DNA of 64,000 nucleotides, taken from Spirochaetota bacterium. Its GTDB lineage: Bacteria; Spirochaetota; UBA4802; UBA5550. Below, one piece after another: positions 25,714 through 34,310 of this stretch; position 1 is the first letter of the stretch, and each line of letters begins with the position of its first letter. Where the stretch lies: assembly GCA_025457915.1 (NCBI GenBank), contig JALOTL010000003.1, positions 1-64,000 of the forward strand, in the 5' to 3' direction. Made by a program: the position numbers and the translations under genes. The notes under the pieces are model-generated. The model did not search any database and was not told the origin of the DNA. It was given only the letters and a program-made list of their open reading frames with translations.

Positions 25714-26283
25714 ATGCCAGAGCTGAACCTTTTAAGCGACGAGGATCTTGTGGGCCTTTACAAAGAAGGCGATGAAAAAGCTTTTAATGAGCTTTACCGG
25801 AGATTCGCCCCCAGGCTGAAAAGGCTCATATATTTCTATTCCTCAAACGCTGACGAGGTCAACGATATATTTCACGAATCGATTATCAGGGTCGTGAAGC
25901 ATATAGACGGCTTCGATATGAGCAAGGCATTCTCATCATGGATCTATCAGATAGCCGTCAACTGCTGCAAAAACCAGATCAAGAAGAACAGGAGACAAAA
26001 CGATTTAATAGAAAAGGAAAAATTCAGGATCGTCGACAGAAACACGGATAATGACTCTCCGGACATGAAGCTTATAAACGATCTTGAAATGAAGGAATTC
26101 AATACCGCGGTTAACGGGCTCAAGGACAAGTTCAAGGACGTGTTTTTATTGAGGTTTGACCAGAAGATGATGTACAGCGAAATATCCGAGATACTCAATT
26201 GTTCAGAAAGAACGGCCAAGTGGCGGATGGAGAAGGCCGTAGAGATCATTGCCAGGCAATTAAGGGACAAGGGCTTGGTTTAA
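25714..26283 (+). CDS. ECF-type RNA polymerase sigma factor
   Basis: The 189-residue protein has sigma region 2 (DEDLVGLYKEGDEKAFNELY, then FSSWIYQIAVNCCKNQIKK) and region 4 (VFLLRFDQKMMYSEISEILN, then CSERTAKWRMEKAVE). No region 3 is present, as usual for ECF factors. It directs RNA polymerase to a small regulon. The next gene starts 3 bp after the stop and encodes a single-pass FecR-domain protein, which probably acts as its anti-sigma or sensor partner. The promoter region is very A+T-rich. Confidence 0.92.
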   Translation: MPELNLLSDEDLVGLYKEGDEKAFNELYRRFAPRLKRLIYFYSSNADEVNDIFHESIIRVVKHIDGFDMSKAFSSWIYQIAVNCCKNQIKKNRRQNDLIEKEKFRIVDRNTDNDSPDMKLINDLEMKEFNTAVNGLKDKFKDVFLLRFDQKMMYSEISEILNCSERTAKWRMEKAVEIIARQLRDKGLV

Positions 26284-26286
26284 ACC

Positions 26287-28425
26287 ATGCAAAGAAACGA
26301 AGAAATAAGCAGCATAATTAAAAAGCTTTCCCGGAAGAAAGCCTTCAGCGGCATGGATACGGATAAACTGGAAGTTTTTTTCGGATCCGCGGAACTCCAT
26401 GTTCCGGAAGGCCTGCTTGATGAAGAACTGGCCTTCATGAAAATAAAGAGCGCCATCAGAAGGGAGTCCCGGGCCCGCACAGGCTTTTTTAAATCGCATG
26501 CCCGGGGAATAGCAGCGGCTTCCGTTTCCGCGGTTGCAACCGCCGCCCTGTCTGCCGTTCTGATAATGAACGGCATTCTTGAGCCTCTTTTCCCGGATTT
26601 TTTCGGACGTGGCATCGCTTACAATATATTCGGCGATGTGAAAGTTGCCAGGGACGGGAGTACCTCGCGGCTGAAAACCGGCGACAGGATCAAATCGGGC
26701 GATGTCGTCATTGCGGCAAAGGAATCCTTCGCCGATCTGAATTTCGGCGACAGGATAAGGATCAGGCTGGTCAGTGAGAGCAGGCTCACGGTTGATGAAT
26801 CCGTTTCCGGCGGTAATAATAAATTCACGGCGCGCCTCGTCGAAGGCGGCGTGATACTGAAGATCGACGGTCTCGTGAAAGGCGATTCCGTCGCCTTGAA
26901 GACGCCGGATTCCACCGCTTTCGTGACGGGAACCGTGTTCAGCGCGGTCACGGATGCTTCCGGGTCCAGGTTCGAGGTATATCGAGGAAAAATCAGGGTC
27001 AGGGAGGCGGACCTTGAAGGCGCCGCTGATACGGGAATGTCCGGGGGCGGGTCCGTTGACGTGGCGGAGAATTCTGTCTGCAGCGTTGAAGCGAAAAAGA
27101 CCGCGGGAAAATCAGGTGATGCCCCAAAATACGACATCAGGGTGGTGCCGTCTTTGCAGGGCAAGCCTGTTCTCAGGGAAGAGACCGACGGCTTCCTGTC
27201 TTCCATAAAAAGCGTTCAACCCGGCAGGCTCAAGTCCCTGCGGGTTTTCGTGAACCCGGCCGACGCGATGGTAATGATTGACGGAATGTACAGGCGGACC
27301 GGCGGAGGTGAATTCTCGGTAACCGTGGGAGTTCACAGCATAAGCGTTCTGGCGGACGGTTATCTCGGCAAAACGGAAAATATCGAAATCGGGTGGATGA
27401 ACCAGGATGTCACAGTTAATCTCGAGAAGATGCAGGGCGGTGATTTGTCAGGCGAACATTCTCCATCATACATGTTCGCTGAAAAGGGCGGGGGTGGCAT
27501 ACTTGCCGTAACCGGTAAAGGCCGGGTTTCGTTATCCGATTCCACTATGAATCGCTGGGTGATGGATCTTTCCGTGAACGTGTCGGTGAGGCCGGCATAC
27601 GACGGGAGCTTGATTTATATCCCCACGAATGACGGCAGGATAATAGCATTGAATCCGGCGAGCGGCGTCGTGGAATGGCAGGTTCGAACAATCGGAACGC
27701 CGTCCGGGGACGCGCTGGGCATGGATAATGACGCAATTTATGCTGTCACGGATGCGAAACATCTCTATAAGATAAAAAAGAACGGCAGAATCCTCTGGCT
27801 GAGCCTTTTCGATTCCCCGATTCTTGCATCACCGGCAATCGGCGTCGGGTCGTTATATGTCTCGCTTGACGACGGCATGCTTTTCTGCGTGGACCCCGCA
27901 AACGGGCAAAAGAGATACTCTATGAATATCGGCGAAGCCGTCGGATCGATCGCCACGGCCGGCAATTCAGTTTTCGCCGCATCGGGAAGTTCATTGTACA
28001 GAATCGATCCGGCAAGAAAATTTATTATATGGAAAAGAAATGACTATTCCAGGTCCGGCAGGTCATTTATCGCTGATTCAGGCGAGATCTATTTCATAAC
28101 TGGCGATGGCGGTCTGGTCAAATTGAACAATGACGGCCAGTCATGGAGGGCCGCTGTTCCGGGGTGGACGACCGGCTCGCCTCTGTTTACAATGGATAAC
28201 ATCATTGTTTCCGGGAAAGGCCTGTATAAAATAGACAGGAAAACCGGCACCGTTTCCGAGGCTGGGAATTCATTGATGAAGGCCGCGATTGAAGGCAAAC
28301 CCGGGAAAAAATATCCGGCTCCGGCAGGGGCAAAGAAGACACTGGATAATAGCGGCGTCCCTGAGAAATACAGAGTTAAAAGCTCCGATGATAAATCCGG
28401 AATCATGAATATTCCTTCCCTCTGA
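26287..28425 (+). CDS. FecR domain / PEGA / PQQ-like beta-propeller membrane protein, likely sigma regulator
   Basis: Domains in order over 712 residues: cytoplasmic N-terminal part (1-70) that could bind the sigma factor; one membrane segment (about 73-95); a FecR domain (about 115-245, with LKTGDRIKSGDVVIAAKESF and TPDSTAFVTGTVFSAV); a PEGA-type surface-layer repeat (about 317-385, RVFVNPADAMVMIDGMYRR then VTVGVHSISVLADGYLG); and a PQQ-like propeller (about 400-625, with repeats such as IYIPTNDGRIIALNPASG and LYVSLDDGMLFCVDPANG). Coupling to the sigma gene is 3 bp. Function as a periplasmic sensor is inferred. The combination is unusual. Confidence 0.75.
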   Translation: MQRNEEISSIIKKLSRKKAFSGMDTDKLEVFFGSAELHVPEGLLDEELAFMKIKSAIRRESRARTGFFKSHARGIAAASVSAVATAALSAVLIMNGILEPLFPDFFGRGIAYNIFGDVKVARDGSTSRLKTGDRIKSGDVVIAAKESFADLNFGDRIRIRLVSESRLTVDESVSGGNNKFTARLVEGGVILKIDGLVKGDSVALKTPDSTAFVTGTVFSAVTDASGSRFEVYRGKIRVREADLEGAADTGMSGGGSVDVAENSVCSVEAKKTAGKSGDAPKYDIRVVPSLQGKPVLREETDGFLSSIKSVQPGRLKSLRVFVNPADAMVMIDGMYRRTGGGEFSVTVGVHSISVLADGYLGKTENIEIGWMNQDVTVNLEKMQGGDLSGEHSPSYMFAEKGGGGILAVTGKGRVSLSDSTMNRWVMDLSVNVSVRPAYDGSLIYIPTNDGRIIALNPASGVVEWQVRTIGTPSGDALGMDNDAIYAVTDAKHLYKIKKNGRILWLSLFDSPILASPAIGVGSLYVSLDDGMLFCVDPANGQKRYSMNIGEAVGSIATAGNSVFAASGSSLYRIDPARKFIIWKRNDYSRSGRSFIADSGEIYFITGDGGLVKLNNDGQSWRAAVPGWTTGSPLFTMDNIIVSGKGLYKIDRKTGTVSEAGNSLMKAAIEGKPGKKYPAPAGAKKTLDNSGVPEKYRVKSSDDKSGIMNIPSL

Positions 28426-28786: not shown

Positions 28787-29335
28787 ATGGATTTGAACGA
28801 ACTGCTGAATAAACAGGACCTGATTAGCAAAACTGTGGAAAAAGAAGTGGCCGGCGAGGAAATTGATATCCTTACAGAGGGAAGGATTATTCAGCTGGTC
28901 AGTTTTCTCCTTGACGAAGTGGAATACGGCGTCGACATCCTCGCGGTGCATGAAATCCTGAGGTTTCCTGATCTTACCAGGCTCCCGAACACGCCAGAAT
29001 ACATCAAGGGAGTTATCAACCTTCGCGGGAATGTAATACCCATTGTTGACGTCAGGCAGCGTTTCGGTTACAAAGATGCGCAGGTCACGGACCTTACGAG
29101 GGTTATAGTGATTGAGACGACCGAAAAGCTTGTTGGACTGCTGGTCGACAATGTTTACCAGGTGGTAAGAATTCCCGAGAGCCACATTGATCCGCCATCC
29201 GAATTGATAGAGGGCGTTTCCGAGGAATATATAACCGGAATCGGCAGGCTTAAAGACAGGTTGATAGTCATACTAAACATATCCAATATCCTTTTCATGG
29301 AAGAGGAGAAGACCGGTTCGGATAAACAGTATTAG
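28787..29335 (+). CDS. cheW: Chemotaxis coupling protein CheW
   Basis: CheW links chemoreceptors to CheA. After a 35-residue N-terminal extension the CheW fold begins at IIQLVSFLLDEVEYGVDILA, with the conserved LPNTPEYIKGVINLRGNVIP and DVRQRFGY. Length 182 aa is a little above average because of the extension. It is the first gene of cheW-cheA-cheB, only 12 bp before cheA. No receptor or cheR gene is in the window. Confidence 0.95.
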   Translation: MDLNELLNKQDLISKTVEKEVAGEEIDILTEGRIIQLVSFLLDEVEYGVDILAVHEILRFPDLTRLPNTPEYIKGVINLRGNVIPIVDVRQRFGYKDAQVTDLTRVIVIETTEKLVGLLVDNVYQVVRIPESHIDPPSELIEGVSEEYITGIGRLKDRLIVILNISNILFMEEEKTGSDKQY

Positions 29336-29347
29336 GAGCGTCTCTTT

Positions 29348-32300
29348 ATGGCATTTACTCTTGGGGAATATCAGGATATATTTCTTGAAGAGGCTGATGA
29401 ACAGCTTCAGGAATTGAATCAAAACCTGCTCGAACTGGAAAAAAATCCCGACGATATAGAGATTATCAACAACATCTTCAGGGCCGCCCATTCACTCAAG
29501 AGTTCAGCCGCCTTCGTCGGCCTCAATGATTTAAGCGATCTCGCGCACAAGATGGAGAACCTCCTTCAGGGAATCAGGGATAAAACACTGGATATAACAC
29601 CAGAGGTCGTCGACATCATTTTTAAATGTTTCGACCAGATAAACGGCGTAATTGAAACCGTGTCGTCCGGGGAGGAGCCGAAGCAGGACCTTACATGGCT
29701 TATGGATGAGATTCAGGCAGTCAGCGAAAAGGCCAAACCCGACGGCTCTGAGAAAGCAAAAACCGGAACAACCCGCGGAGCCATGTCCGGGGAAGACATG
29801 ATTCCAAAGACTGTCCTCGCTTCGGATGACAGGAAAAACATAAAACGGGGGCTTGATTCCGGAAACAGCTGCAGCGAGATAACGGTTTTCATCGATGAAA
29901 CGGCCCAGATGAAATGGGTCAAGGCCCAGCTGGTCCTCAGCAATCTTGGAAAAATCGGCAAGGTCGTGAGCACCATGCCGCACGCCGAGGATCTCACAGA
30001 TGACGTCATGAGCGGTGTCTTCAAGGTGATATATCTTACGGACAATTCGATCGATGACATCAAGAGGGCGTGCAATATCGACCTGGTAACGAGGATCGAT
30101 ATAAAAAGCATAACCATCTCCCGCAAGGAAGATAAGCTTGTCATACAGTTCGGACAGAACGAGACATTTTTAAGCGGTGATGACAAGAAAAATGAAAAGC
30201 AATACGATTTCAAATCATCGCTGTCGAAGGGAGATGACGGCGATTTTTCCTCCGATTCCGAAGAAGAGGAGGAGGATCCTACCGAGCTTATTATCAACGC
30301 CGAGCTTGAGTCCAAGTCATCCGCAAAGAAGCCTGCTGAAAGGGAGGATTCCGACAGGAAGAAAATCACCGTCCTCAAAACAGTCAAGGTTTCGATTGAC
30401 AAGCTGGACCTTCTTCTTAACAACGTCGGGGAACTGGTCATAGCAAACTCCGGATTCTACAAGCTCTATGAAGAGGTCCGCAAGACCGTCATCGAGAAGT
30501 CCCTGATTAACGAGTTCAAGAGCCGAATGGAGCAGATGTCCAGGATCGCAAAGGACCTTCAGACCGGCATAATGAAGACGAGGATGGTTCCTATCGGTCA
30601 GGTATTTTCAAGATTCAACAGGCTTGTCAGGGACCTTGCCAGGGATTTCAACAAGAAGGTGGAGCTCGTGACCAAGGGGGAGGAAACCGAGCTTGATAAA
30701 AAGGTCATAGATTCCATAGGCGAGCCGCTCCTTCACCTCATCAGAAACGCGATAGACCACGGCATAGAAGGGTCCGATGAAAGGAAGCGGCTGGGGAAAT
30801 CCGAGCTGGCCACCGTTACCCTGAACGCATACCAGGGCGGTAACCAGATATTCGTGGAAGTGATAGACGACGGCAGGGGCTTGAATCTCGAAATGATAAA
30901 AAAGAAGGCCCTTGAAAGGAACCTCGCGACCAGAGACATGATCAATTCCATGGACAATAACGACATCTACAATTTCATATTTACTCCCGGATTTTCGACT
31001 GCTGAAAAAATTACGGACATATCAGGACGCGGAGTCGGCATGAACGTCGTCAAGGAGATAGTGGGCGAGCTTAACGGGAATGTCAGCATCGAGACCGAGA
31101 CCGGCATGGGGACGAGATTCGTCCTGTCCTTCCCGCTTACCCTTGCGATTATACCCGCCATCATGACAAAGGTGAGAAAGGAAACCTATGCGATCCCTCT
31201 CTCCGATGTCATCGAGACCATAAAGATTTCCGAGTCCGACGTTACTACGATTGAAGGGCACGAAGTCATAAATCTCCGCGGCGAGATATTGTCGCTCCTC
31301 AGGCTTTGCGATTTCATAGGGATAAAGACCGCCCTCGGAAAGGACCAGAAGATCCCCGTTGTAGTGGTGGGCTTCGGCAACAGAAAGATAGGCCTCATCG
31401 TGGATTATCTCGAGGGCAAGCAGGAGATCGTAATAAAATCCCTCGAGCAAAACTATACCACGGTAAAGGGCTTTGCGGGAGCGTCCATTCTGGGTGACGG
31501 AAGCATATGCCTGATTCTCGACATATCATCAATGATCAATCAGGTCATCATAGAACAGGAAAAGATTTCGAGGATGGACAGGCAGAGGATAATAGAGGCA
31601 GGGGAGGCCGAAGTTGAAAAGACCGCGGATTTGATCCAGGAGCCGACCAAGCCGGATAAACCGGCCGATGCCCCGAAGTCCGGCGGGTCGTCCTTTACAA
31701 CCGATACCGGCAGGGTTTCAATAGCGGAAAAGCTCCAGCCGAAAGCGCAGGAACCGGCCCCGATCCCGGAGACACCGGTGAAAATGGAAGAAAAAAAGCC
31801 GGAAGGGGACATCGATGAACTGGAGATGTTCGATGATTCACCCAAGCCTGTAACGAAACTCGGGGATGATGGTGATGTGGATAAAAAGGTCCATGAAGCG
31901 CTCGAGAATTTTAAAAAGGAACTCAGGGACAATATAAAGGCCACGATGGACACCGGCAGCCCTTCCGAGCACATGGTAGCGTCCCTGTCCATAACAAAGG
32001 AAGACCTGAATAATTTCCAGGTCATAGCGAACATAGGAGCGGCCAATGCCGCTGAATCTTTGTCTAAAATCATAAACAAGAGGATCGATCTCACGATTCC
32101 CGAGGTGACGGTAATGCCCACGGAGCAGATACCGAAATTCATCGGCGACATCGACAGCATCTACATGGGGGTCATGCTTCCCATGATAGGAGACGCCAAG
32201 GGGACATTGCTCTTTATCATCAATGAAGATGTCGGATTTCAACTGATAGACCTGCTTTACGGTACGCAGACCAGCAAGACCAAGGAGTTGACCGAGGACG

Positions 32301-32599
32301 GCGAATCCGCCCTGCAGGAGCTCACCAACATTCTTGGATCATCGGTAATAAATGTCTTCGCTGAGAAGACCGGCCTCAAAATCAAACCGGATCTTCCATC
32401 TATTGTCCATGATTATCTGCAGTCTGTAATCGATTCCATACTGGTGCTTCATAACCTCGTGAACGACTACGCCGTTGTCATGGATACAGCGTTTTTCTTT
32501 GAAAACGACCAGATAATAGGCAATCTCCTTCTGCTCCCGGAGGCCGAATCTTTGAAAATCATAGTCGATCGTATGGGGTCCAATGGCGGATCAAATTAA
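29348..32599 (+). CDS. cheA: CheA histidine kinase fused to a C-terminal CheC phosphatase-like domain
   Basis: 1083 residues. P1/HPt domain at 1-110 with AAHSLKSSAAF (H48 phosphorylated); a P2-like ferredoxin-fold domain at about 175-260; P3 dimerisation helices 340-410; HATPase 410-600 with N box LLHLIRNAIDHG, G1 DDGRGL and G2 GTRFVLSFPLTLA; a CheW-like P5 at 600-740. A Pro/Glu linker then leads to a CheC domain (about 880-1070). Its first phosphatase site reads QVIANIGAAN, with the catalytic Glu replaced by V892. The second reads SALQELTN, with S987, E991 and N994 intact. So kinase and CheY-P phosphatase activities may sit in one chain. The fusion has no frameshift. It overlaps cheB by 17 bp. 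Confidence 0.93.
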   Translation: MAFTLGEYQDIFLEEADEQLQELNQNLLELEKNPDDIEIINNIFRAAHSLKSSAAFVGLNDLSDLAHKMENLLQGIRDKTLDITPEVVDIIFKCFDQINGVIETVSSGEEPKQDLTWLMDEIQAVSEKAKPDGSEKAKTGTTRGAMSGEDMIPKTVLASDDRKNIKRGLDSGNSCSEITVFIDETAQMKWVKAQLVLSNLGKIGKVVSTMPHAEDLTDDVMSGVFKVIYLTDNSIDDIKRACNIDLVTRIDIKSITISRKEDKLVIQFGQNETFLSGDDKKNEKQYDFKSSLSKGDDGDFSSDSEEEEEDPTELIINAELESKSSAKKPAEREDSDRKKITVLKTVKVSIDKLDLLLNNVGELVIANSGFYKLYEEVRKTVIEKSLINEFKSRMEQMSRIAKDLQTGIMKTRMVPIGQVFSRFNRLVRDLARDFNKKVELVTKGEETELDKKVIDSIGEPLLHLIRNAIDHGIEGSDERKRLGKSELATVTLNAYQGGNQIFVEVIDDGRGLNLEMIKKKALERNLATRDMINSMDNNDIYNFIFTPGFSTAEKITDISGRGVGMNVVKEIVGELNGNVSIETETGMGTRFVLSFPLTLAIIPAIMTKVRKETYAIPLSDVIETIKISESDVTTIEGHEVINLRGEILSLLRLCDFIGIKTALGKDQKIPVVVVGFGNRKIGLIVDYLEGKQEIVIKSLEQNYTTVKGFAGASILGDGSICLILDISSMINQVIIEQEKISRMDRQRIIEAGEAEVEKTADLIQEPTKPDKPADAPKSGGSSFTTDTGRVSIAEKLQPKAQEPAPIPETPVKMEEKKPEGDIDELEMFDDSPKPVTKLGDDGDVDKKVHEALENFKKELRDNIKATMDTGSPSEHMVASLSITKEDLNNFQVIANIGAANAAESLSKIINKRIDLTIPEVTVMPTEQIPKFIGDIDSIYMGVMLPMIGDAKGTLLFIINEDVGFQLIDLLYGTQTSKTKELTEDGESALQELTNILGSSVINVFAEKTGLKIKPDLPSIVHDYLQSVIDSILVLHNLVNDYAVVMDTAFFFENDQIIGNLLLLPEAESLKIIVDRMGSNGGSN

Positions 32600-33647
32600 G
32601 GTTCTGGTTGTAGACGATTCCTCTCTTGTAAGAAAGATAACAACCGATATTCTGGAAAGCGATCCGATGATAAAAGTCATCGGTACGGCCAACAACGGAA
32701 AGACCGCCATCTTCAAGAACACCAAGCTCAATCCGGACGTAATAACGATGGACATAGAGATGCCCATCATGGACGGTCTTGCCGCGCTCAGGTATATCAT
32801 TGAAACCAACCCGAAGCCTGTGATAATGATGAGCGTGCTCACGCAGCACGGCGCCGAGGCGACCTTCAAGGCCCTGGAGTACGGGGCGGTAGACTTCATA
32901 CCAAAACCCTCTTCACTGTTGTCCCTGACGCTGGAGGAGATCGGGAGTCTGCTCATATCGAAGGTCAAGTCGGTTTATCATTCCAAGATCAGCACCTCGA
33001 GAAAATCATCCGGCGATGGTTCCGGCGATCCACGGTCACCATTGGAAAAACGGCTTAAAATGTTCGATAAGGGGGAAACGAGCAGCAAGATTATAGGGAT
33101 CGGCACTTCGACCGGCGGGCCTTCGGCGCTCATAAATATATTCGAAAGCATGCCCGCGAACTTTCCCTCCCCGGTGGTCGTGGTCCAGCATATGCCCGAG
33201 GGTTTTACAAAGGCGTTTTCGGAAAGACTGGACAGCAGTTCCCAGCTCAGGGTGAAGGAGGCCGAGGATGGAGATCCCGTCAATCCCGGATGGGGTTATA
33301 TCGCACCCGGTCATTCTCATATAAGAGTCGAGAACCGCAGCAATGTAAAATACATAAGGGTTTTCAAAGGCGATAAGGTTTCCGGGCACATGCCGTCCAT
33401 AGATGTTTTGTTCAACTCCCTTGCCGAGGAATGCGGGGACAACACCATAGGGGTAATAATGACCGGCATGGGTAAAGACGGTGCCGAGGGCATCCTCAAA
33501 ATAAAAAAATCCGGCGGCCGTACAATAGCCCAGGACGAGAATACATCGGTTGTTTATGGAATGAACAGGGTGGCTGTACAGCTCGGAGCGATTGACGAGG
33601 TTTTGCCATTGTATGAAATTCCAAAAAAAATAGTTGAATATATATGA
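32583..33647 (+). CDS. cheB: Chemotaxis methylesterase/glutaminase CheB
   Basis: CheB demethylates receptors and deamidates glutamines when phosphorylated by CheA. The receiver domain (1-120) has VVDDSSLVRK, the phospho-acceptor D57 in ITMDIEMPIMDG, and the KP pair in FIPKP. The C-terminal esterase domain has GIGTSTGGPSAL (catalytic Ser), VVVQHMPEGFT (His) and VIMTGMGKDGAEG (Asp). Length 354 aa is normal. The start overlaps cheA by 17 bp. The matching methyltransferase CheR is not encoded nearby. Confidence 0.96.
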   Translation: MADQIKVLVVDDSSLVRKITTDILESDPMIKVIGTANNGKTAIFKNTKLNPDVITMDIEMPIMDGLAALRYIIETNPKPVIMMSVLTQHGAEATFKALEYGAVDFIPKPSSLLSLTLEEIGSLLISKVKSVYHSKISTSRKSSGDGSGDPRSPLEKRLKMFDKGETSSKIIGIGTSTGGPSALINIFESMPANFPSPVVVVQHMPEGFTKAFSERLDSSSQLRVKEAEDGDPVNPGWGYIAPGHSHIRVENRSNVKYIRVFKGDKVSGHMPSIDVLFNSLAEECGDNTIGVIMTGMGKDGAEGILKIKKSGGRTIAQDENTSVVYGMNRVAVQLGAIDEVLPLYEIPKKIVEYI

Positions 33648-33860
33648 GATGTAATAGTATAATGACCCTGTAGATAATAAGATAATTTATTGAAAAAAAC
33701 TATTTTTTTTTATATATGTTTTATTTTATTAAATAATGTTGTTATCTTTTAGTAAAGATATGAAGAAGTTGCCCGGCATTTTTAATTTATTAGTTTATAA
33801 AAAAAGACGTTTCTTCGAAAATAAATATAGGTTCCATTCTAGTATTCATGGAGAACATTG

Positions 33861-34220
33861 ATGGCTAGGGTTTTAATAGTAGATGATGCAAAATTCATGA
33901 GAACACTGGTTAAGGACGCCCTGGTTCCTGCCGGTCATGAAATTGTCGGCGAAGCGGAAAACGGTATTGAGGCCGTTAATCTATATAAAAAATTGAAACC
34001 GGATCTAGTCACCATGGATATAACCATGAGGGAAAAGGACGGCATAGAGGCTGCTGAAGAGATTTTAACGATAGACACCAGTGCAAGAATAATAATGGTC
34101 ACCGCCCTCGGACAGGAAAACCTTCTTACTAAAGCCATAAAACTGGGAGTCAAGGATTTCGTCGTCAAACCTTTTCCCCCTGAAAGGCTGCAAAAAGCCG
34201 CCGAAAAAGCGCTTGCGTGA
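33861..34220 (+). CDS. cheY: CheY-like response regulator
   Basis: A stand-alone receiver of 119 residues: VLIVDDAKFMR at the acidic pocket, phospho-acceptor D53 in LVTMDITM, T in IMVTAL and the conserved lysine in FVVKPF. The usual MPxMDG turn is MREKDG, so the proline is replaced by arginine. Located 213 bp after cheB, preceded by an A+T-rich stretch in which I see no further gene, and ended by a strong terminator, so it is probably transcribed apart. The ATG at 33861 has GGAGA eight bases upstream. Confidence 0.88.
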   Translation: MARVLIVDDAKFMRTLVKDALVPAGHEIVGEAENGIEAVNLYKKLKPDLVTMDITMREKDGIEAAEEILTIDTSARIIMVTALGQENLLTKAIKLGVKDFVVKPFPPERLQKAAEKALA

Positions 34221-34243
34221 TTTGATATTTTACTTGATCGTAT

Positions 34244-34276
34244 AAAAACCCCTCTTGACAAAAAGAGGGGTTTTTG
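34244..34276 (+). terminator. Intrinsic terminator after cheY
   Basis: A 13-bp stem (AAAAACCCCTCTT with AAGAGGGGTTTTT) and a GACAAA loop with T-rich tail, starting 24 bp after the cheY stop. Confidence 0.92.
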
Positions 34277-34310
34277 TTTTATTTTCCAATGAATTAAACG
34301 GACCTTCTTT

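Follow-up and report, generated by a model that had tools for sequence, protein, structure and literature searches.

The gene cheA-cheC, at 29348–32599 of the window (the whole 64,000-nucleotide stretch of DNA analysed here), encodes a 1083-residue protein that we read, with a probability of roughly two in three, as a CheA kinase carrying a tethered single-site CheC-type CheY-P phosphatase at its C terminus. The tethered domain perhaps also docks CheD. The gene runs from ATG to stop, as judged from the ORF call and from homologues, and lies on the forward strand, as do its domains and the neighbouring cheW, cheB, and cheY described below. The window comes from an uncultured spirochaete class, represented by 46 genomes of one order. 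A homologue search over 59 related genomes gave full-length matches throughout this order, and 30 independent class genomes have one with 56–67% identity over ~1080 residues.

The N-terminal part of the protein contains all five CheA domains in canonical order, as identified with Pfam. The P1 (Hpt) domain (29369–29641, residues 8–98) bears the phospho-acceptor H48, which the alignment shows to be invariant in all 30 homologues of the class. It is followed by the response-regulator-binding domain P2 (29876–30106, residues 177–253), the P3 dimerisation domain (H-kinase_dim; 30377–30580, residues 344–411), the P4 ATPase domain (HATPase_c; 30728–31141, residues 461–598), and the CheW-like P5 domain (31160–31543, residues 605–732). 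Residues of the P4 N-, G1-, F-, and G2-boxes are invariant in an alignment of 11 homologues, and the ATP-binding residues N467, D508/G509/G511, and G560/G562/G564 are all present and invariant. As all key residues are in place, the kinase half is predicted to be active. A linker rich in charged residues and proline (31565–31927, residues about 740–860; 13% E, 12% K, 11% D, and 10% P), delimited by composition and alignment, then leads to the CheC domain. This linker is poorly conserved across homologues, apart from a helix at about residues 848–859 (window about 31889–31924) directly N-terminal of the CheC domain, in which V848, L852, F855, E858, and L859 are invariant in 11 homologues. This helix may serve as a docking element.

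The C-terminal tail (31991–32578, residues 882–1077) is assigned to CheC by Pfam, NCBIfam, and structure matching. Pfam CheC matches it in two stretches with a value (2.6e-11) that clears the curated cut-off, and residues 882–1077 align with positions 3–200 of the 201-position NCBIfam model CheC_Thtogales (E 8.8e-36), a match far under the strict equivalog cut-off of this Thermotogales model, as expected for another phylum. The nearest solved chain by sequence is T. maritima CheC (1xkr, 5.8e-22), which is also the top structure match of an AlphaFold model of residues 844–1083 (pLDDT 81; TM 0.88 on target). The CheC chain of the CheC–CheD complex 2f9z ranks next, then FliY and haloarchaeal CheC, with lower TM scores for FliM middle domains (0.71–0.79) and CheX (0.64–0.69). 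A tail of FliM/FliN type only is ruled out by this ranking. CheX is a weaker fit, since the Pfam CheX match (0.0015) falls under the cut-off and the TM score is about 0.67.

Only one of the two phosphatase sites of the domain is retained. At site 1 (32009–32032; N888-V892-N895), V892 occupies the position of the catalytic Glu, while N895 is present. Site 2 (32306–32329) consists of S987, E991, and N994. Across the 30 class homologues, the site-1 Glu is replaced by V, L, or I in every case, and S987, E991, and N994 are invariant. Rather than the two pseudo-symmetric (D/S)x3Ex2N sites, the domain thus has an intact site 2 and a site 1 without its Glu, making it a single-site CheC variant whose site 1 is, from these residues, predicted to be dead. 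The pattern extends well beyond the class: Glu and Asn of site 2 are kept in 45/45 fusions from 17 families, and a site 1 with both Glu and Asn occurs in 0/45, although the site-1 alignment is clear in the window's class and in families f11 and f34 and uncertain in the most divergent tails. At its S/D position, site 2 varies: 32 of the 45 have Ser and 11 have Glu. In an alignment of 54 rows, whose identity to the window protein is about 20–74%, invariance is confined to three columns, namely E991, N994, and one proline. Since exactly the two catalytic residues are kept over such divergence, selection for CheY-P hydrolysis best explains the retention of site 2. Four free CheC-like proteins of the phylum were compared; three (L133, L134, and L135) keep both sites, and strong divergence makes the fourth (L136) unreadable.

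These results bear on an earlier note on this DNA, which described a complete P1–P5 CheA running through an in-frame linker into a CheC-like domain (about 880–1070) that lacks the catalytic Glu of site 1 and keeps site 2 intact. The Pfam order and the linker composition bear out this architecture, and Pfam, NCBIfam, and the fold agree on CheC. The comparison of a predicted structure with CheC and CheX, proposed there as a check, places CheC best, with FliM and CheX lower. Both site assignments hold in 30/30 class members.

The gene is embedded in a chemotaxis cluster. It is preceded by cheW (28787–29335; Pfam) and followed by cheB (REC plus methylesterase; 32583–33647), which shares its first 17 bases with the end of cheA-cheC, and by cheY (33858–34220; Pfam), which encodes the presumed substrate. 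A terminator-like stem (34242–34277) lies after cheY. The order cheW, cheA/C, cheB, cheY, scpA, scpB is conserved in the class, and in other families outside it cheA/C adjoins cheY. Upstream of cheW, at 25714–28425, are genes for an ECF-type sigma factor and a FecR-like/PQQ-repeat protein, found in the same place in many relatives. They may be linked to the che operon in their regulation.

Within the window's class, the fusion is essentially universal. With the CheC-domain alignment of the class as query, matches were found in 120 of 296 spirochaete genomes, and an open frame of at least 850 residues with a CheC domain in about 86, of which 41 belong to the class and about 45 lie outside it. 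Three further class genomes (G004, G045, and G042) have the domain in a frame that is truncated or interrupted. In the incomplete assembly of a fourth (G008), there is only a weak match on a 366-residue frame that is probably FliY, and the incomplete assembly of a fifth (G007) gave no CheC-domain match. The cheA/C gene of the UBA5368 metagenome-assembled genome (MAG; L065:5192-8782) is broken over three frames. Among named records, close relatives of the domain are all from uncultured spirochaete MAGs (for example, RBG_13_51_14, RBG_16_49_21, UBA5368, and HGW-Spirochaetae-5), bar one titled "uncultured bacterium", which would fit GTDB class UBA4802 as the window's class. A search of CheA proteins for a C-terminal CheC or CheX domain, another check that the earlier note had put forward, verified the CheA core and CheC tail directly in 45 proteins, including members of families f9, f11, f19, f22, f27, f28, f29, f34, f38, f41, and f46. 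Family f11, which lies outside the window's class, is Leptospira-type (5/6 pass the NCBIfam NF047496 cut-off) and carries the fusion.

Several outer tails (f22, f38, and f46) give no Pfam match at all. Pfam-negative outer tails nonetheless match NCBIfam CheC down to 3e-10, and an outer tail compared with the window-class CheC reaches a profile–profile probability of 99.2%. The outer-tail model (pLDDT 91) has CheC structures as its best PDB matches (1xkr, E 6e-8). Across several spirochaete families, CheA tails (L121–L132) are CheC-fold domains under the Pfam threshold, so annotation will miss the fusion.

A tree of the P3–P5 core of 61 spirochaete CheAs parts the 45 fused from the 16 unfused proteins by a single branch (support 100/98), which occurs in 100% of 200 bootstrap trees. 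Repeated independent fusions are therefore not needed. The tree has no root, and its unfused members came from matches to the window protein, so it is equally compatible with one gain or one loss. It groups the window protein with the Leptospira-type fusions (100/96), and the fusion is ancient and widespread among spirochaetes. A horizontal gain specific to the window's organism is not supported, since G+C is uniform (0.49 in the CheA core, 0.53 in the linker, 0.48 in CheC, and 0.50 in the window) and both the gene order and the tree point to vertical descent. One genome (G203) has two CheA–CheC paralogues on different branches (L114 and L115), plus several free CheX.

The fused domain is one among several predicted CheY-P phosphatases of the cell, set apart by its attachment to the kinase. 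Besides it, the window's genome encodes a CheX of 163 residues (2e-16), a second CheX-like protein of 154 residues (9.7e-10), and a FliY-like protein of 352 residues (L004:982-2040, reverse strand; FliMN_C 1.7e-25) with a CheC-like domain and an S-TIQ-E-FT-N (ExxN) motif; this last protein is another candidate CheY-P phosphatase, at the motor. A role as sole CheY-P phosphatase is thus ruled out. With at least two CheX and a FliY with ExxN in the same genome, the fused site is not necessarily the main one. CheZ was found in none of the 46 genomes of the class.

In the mechanism we propose, P5 and CheW would place the kinase in the receptor array, where P4 would phosphorylate H48 and the phosphate would pass to CheY docked on P2. 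The flexible linker of ~120 residues would bring CheY-P near the array within range of the CheC domain. There, the Asn of site 2, positioned by the Glu, would be inserted at the phospho-Asp of CheY and speed hydrolysis, so that CheY-P would likely be short-lived near its source. One chain may then both make and remove CheY-P, which fits the strict conservation of site 2. The arrangement can be likened to E. coli CheZ at the receptor cluster, yet here the phosphatase would be fixed 1:1 to its kinase. In the window's class, the CheC domain has probably also retained a surface on which CheD can dock.

Three other explanations were weighed against this reading. The sequence is from a MAG, and other MAGs (L065/UBA5368 and G042) have the gene split over frames, which could suggest two adjacent genes merged through a frame or assembly error. 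We give this almost no credence, as the identical full-length frame recurs in 30 class genomes, frames of at least 850 residues are found in about 86/296 spirochaete genomes, and the gene order is uniform; a joining of neighbouring genes is thereby ruled out. Alternatively, the CheC domain could bind CheY-P but not hydrolyse it to any useful extent. It would then serve as a CheY-P sink, or it would sense its own occupancy and feed this back to the kinase it is joined to. Its tether to the kinase, its one dead site, and the presence of the CheX and FliY phosphatases would all suit such a role, but it does not account for the invariance of the two catalytic residues in 45/45 fusions alongside the decay of site 1, and we regard it as improbable.

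The remaining explanation concerns CheD, whose binding the earlier note leaves aside. D1022 (32411–32413) lies 28 residues past the site-2 Asn, aligns with an Asp of T. maritima CheC, and is Asp in 30/30 of the class. By this spacing, we equate it with the CheD-interface residue D149 of B. subtilis CheC, in which N121 is, we assume, the site-2 Asn, giving D149 the same spacing of 28. B. subtilis CheC is a weak phosphatase, with 6% of the activity of FliY, and its main role is CheD binding; the D149K substitution reduces this binding, which matters more than the phosphatase activity (PMC3513319). With the B. subtilis CheC/CheD/CheYp adaptation loop as precedent (PMC3513319), the fused CheC might mainly be a CheY-P-responsive CheD dock, in which rising CheY-P would draw CheD from the receptors onto the kinase and hydrolysis at site 2 would be secondary. 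Besides D1022, this would be consistent with the presence of CheD in 50/51 genomes tested and with clusters in which cheD comes immediately after cheA/C, with a free cheX next (two in G047, L118 and L119, and one in G078, L117). The column of D1022 is Asp in families f9, f10, f27, and f28, but the residue is lost elsewhere: it is Gly in all seven Leptospira-type sequences (f11), another residue in 8/9 of f34 (one alignment is ambiguous), and absent from f22-type tails, whereas the site-2 Glu and Asn are never lost. Nor does the cheD gene neighbour cheA/C in the window's class. We consider docking of CheD likely in certain classes, the window's among them, but the constant feature is site 2 and not the CheD dock; that docking is the main function seems unlikely to us.

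The reading of a kinase with a tethered phosphatase is favoured by a complete kinase and a complete CheC domain in one conserved frame, by the CheC fold, by the opposite fates of the two sites, by the conserved che gene order, and by the lack of CheZ in the class. It is weakened by the weak phosphatase activity of B. subtilis CheC, by the co-encoded CheX and FliY, and by the variable S/D position of site 2. A broader scenario, for which we see the evidence as evenly poised, is that a single ancient fusion gave rise to a bifunctional kinase/phosphatase, which was then passed on vertically across much of the phylum. The CheC half would have become a distinct single-site enzyme, with site 1 free to decay and site 2 held absolutely, CheY-P production and removal would be locked 1:1 in the array, and a CheD dock would be optional in some classes.

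The architecture and the dual-function hypothesis are not new. In the passages of their paper considered here, Berry, Andrianova, and Zhulin (2023) describe fusions of CheC/CheX with F1 CheA in Leptospirae and propose a dual kinase/phosphatase role (PMC10782961). The earlier note, which did not recall the fusion as described, was therefore mistaken on this point. Of the outcomes that it had named as counting against it, a tail fitting only FliM/FliN did not materialise, as CheC fits best; that the family is already documented did, which touches its novelty and not the biology. According to the same passages, the set of Berry et al. consisted of the RefSeq genomes of GTDB v95 in MiST 3.0 (PMC10782961), which probably explains why classes known only from MAGs escaped it. 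Relative to those passages, the extension to the window's class and others, the split along one branch, the one-site rule, and the CheD-contact pattern are new, and fusions elsewhere may have been mentioned earlier.

In models of chemotaxis, kinase and phosphatase are usually free to vary independently and to sit in different places; a fixed 1:1 fusion constrains both and is a natural test of how enzyme co-localisation affects gain, response time, and robustness. The one-site pattern yields a clean prediction, namely that E991/N994 are essential and site 1 does not matter. As classes differ at the CheD contact, a comparison of lineages can separate the two proposed roles of CheC.

Among known systems, the Leptospirae fusions, as presented in the passages of Berry et al. 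cited above, are the closest in architecture, joining a five-domain CheA to a CheC/CheX domain with the same proposed dual function; the window's protein comes from another, uncultured class. In function, E. coli CheZ comes nearest: at the receptor cluster, this phosphatase shares the array with the kinase (PMC2673030). CheZ has an unrelated fold, however, and is held by interaction, whereas CheC is held here by fusion. Free CheC (T. maritima 1xkr, B. subtilis) has the fold and the site-2 motif in common with the fused domain, and its CheD-interface Asp is also found in the window's class, but the domain here is fused to CheA and has lost site 1. CheX (T. maritima 1xko; B. burgdorferi 3hzh) belongs to the same superfamily and has one ExxN site per chain, whereas the fused domain is of full CheC length and fits CheC better. 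FliY (4hyn) likewise has a CheC-like domain with CheY-P phosphatase residues; the fused protein, in contrast, has no FliN C terminus and sits on the kinase rather than on the motor switch.
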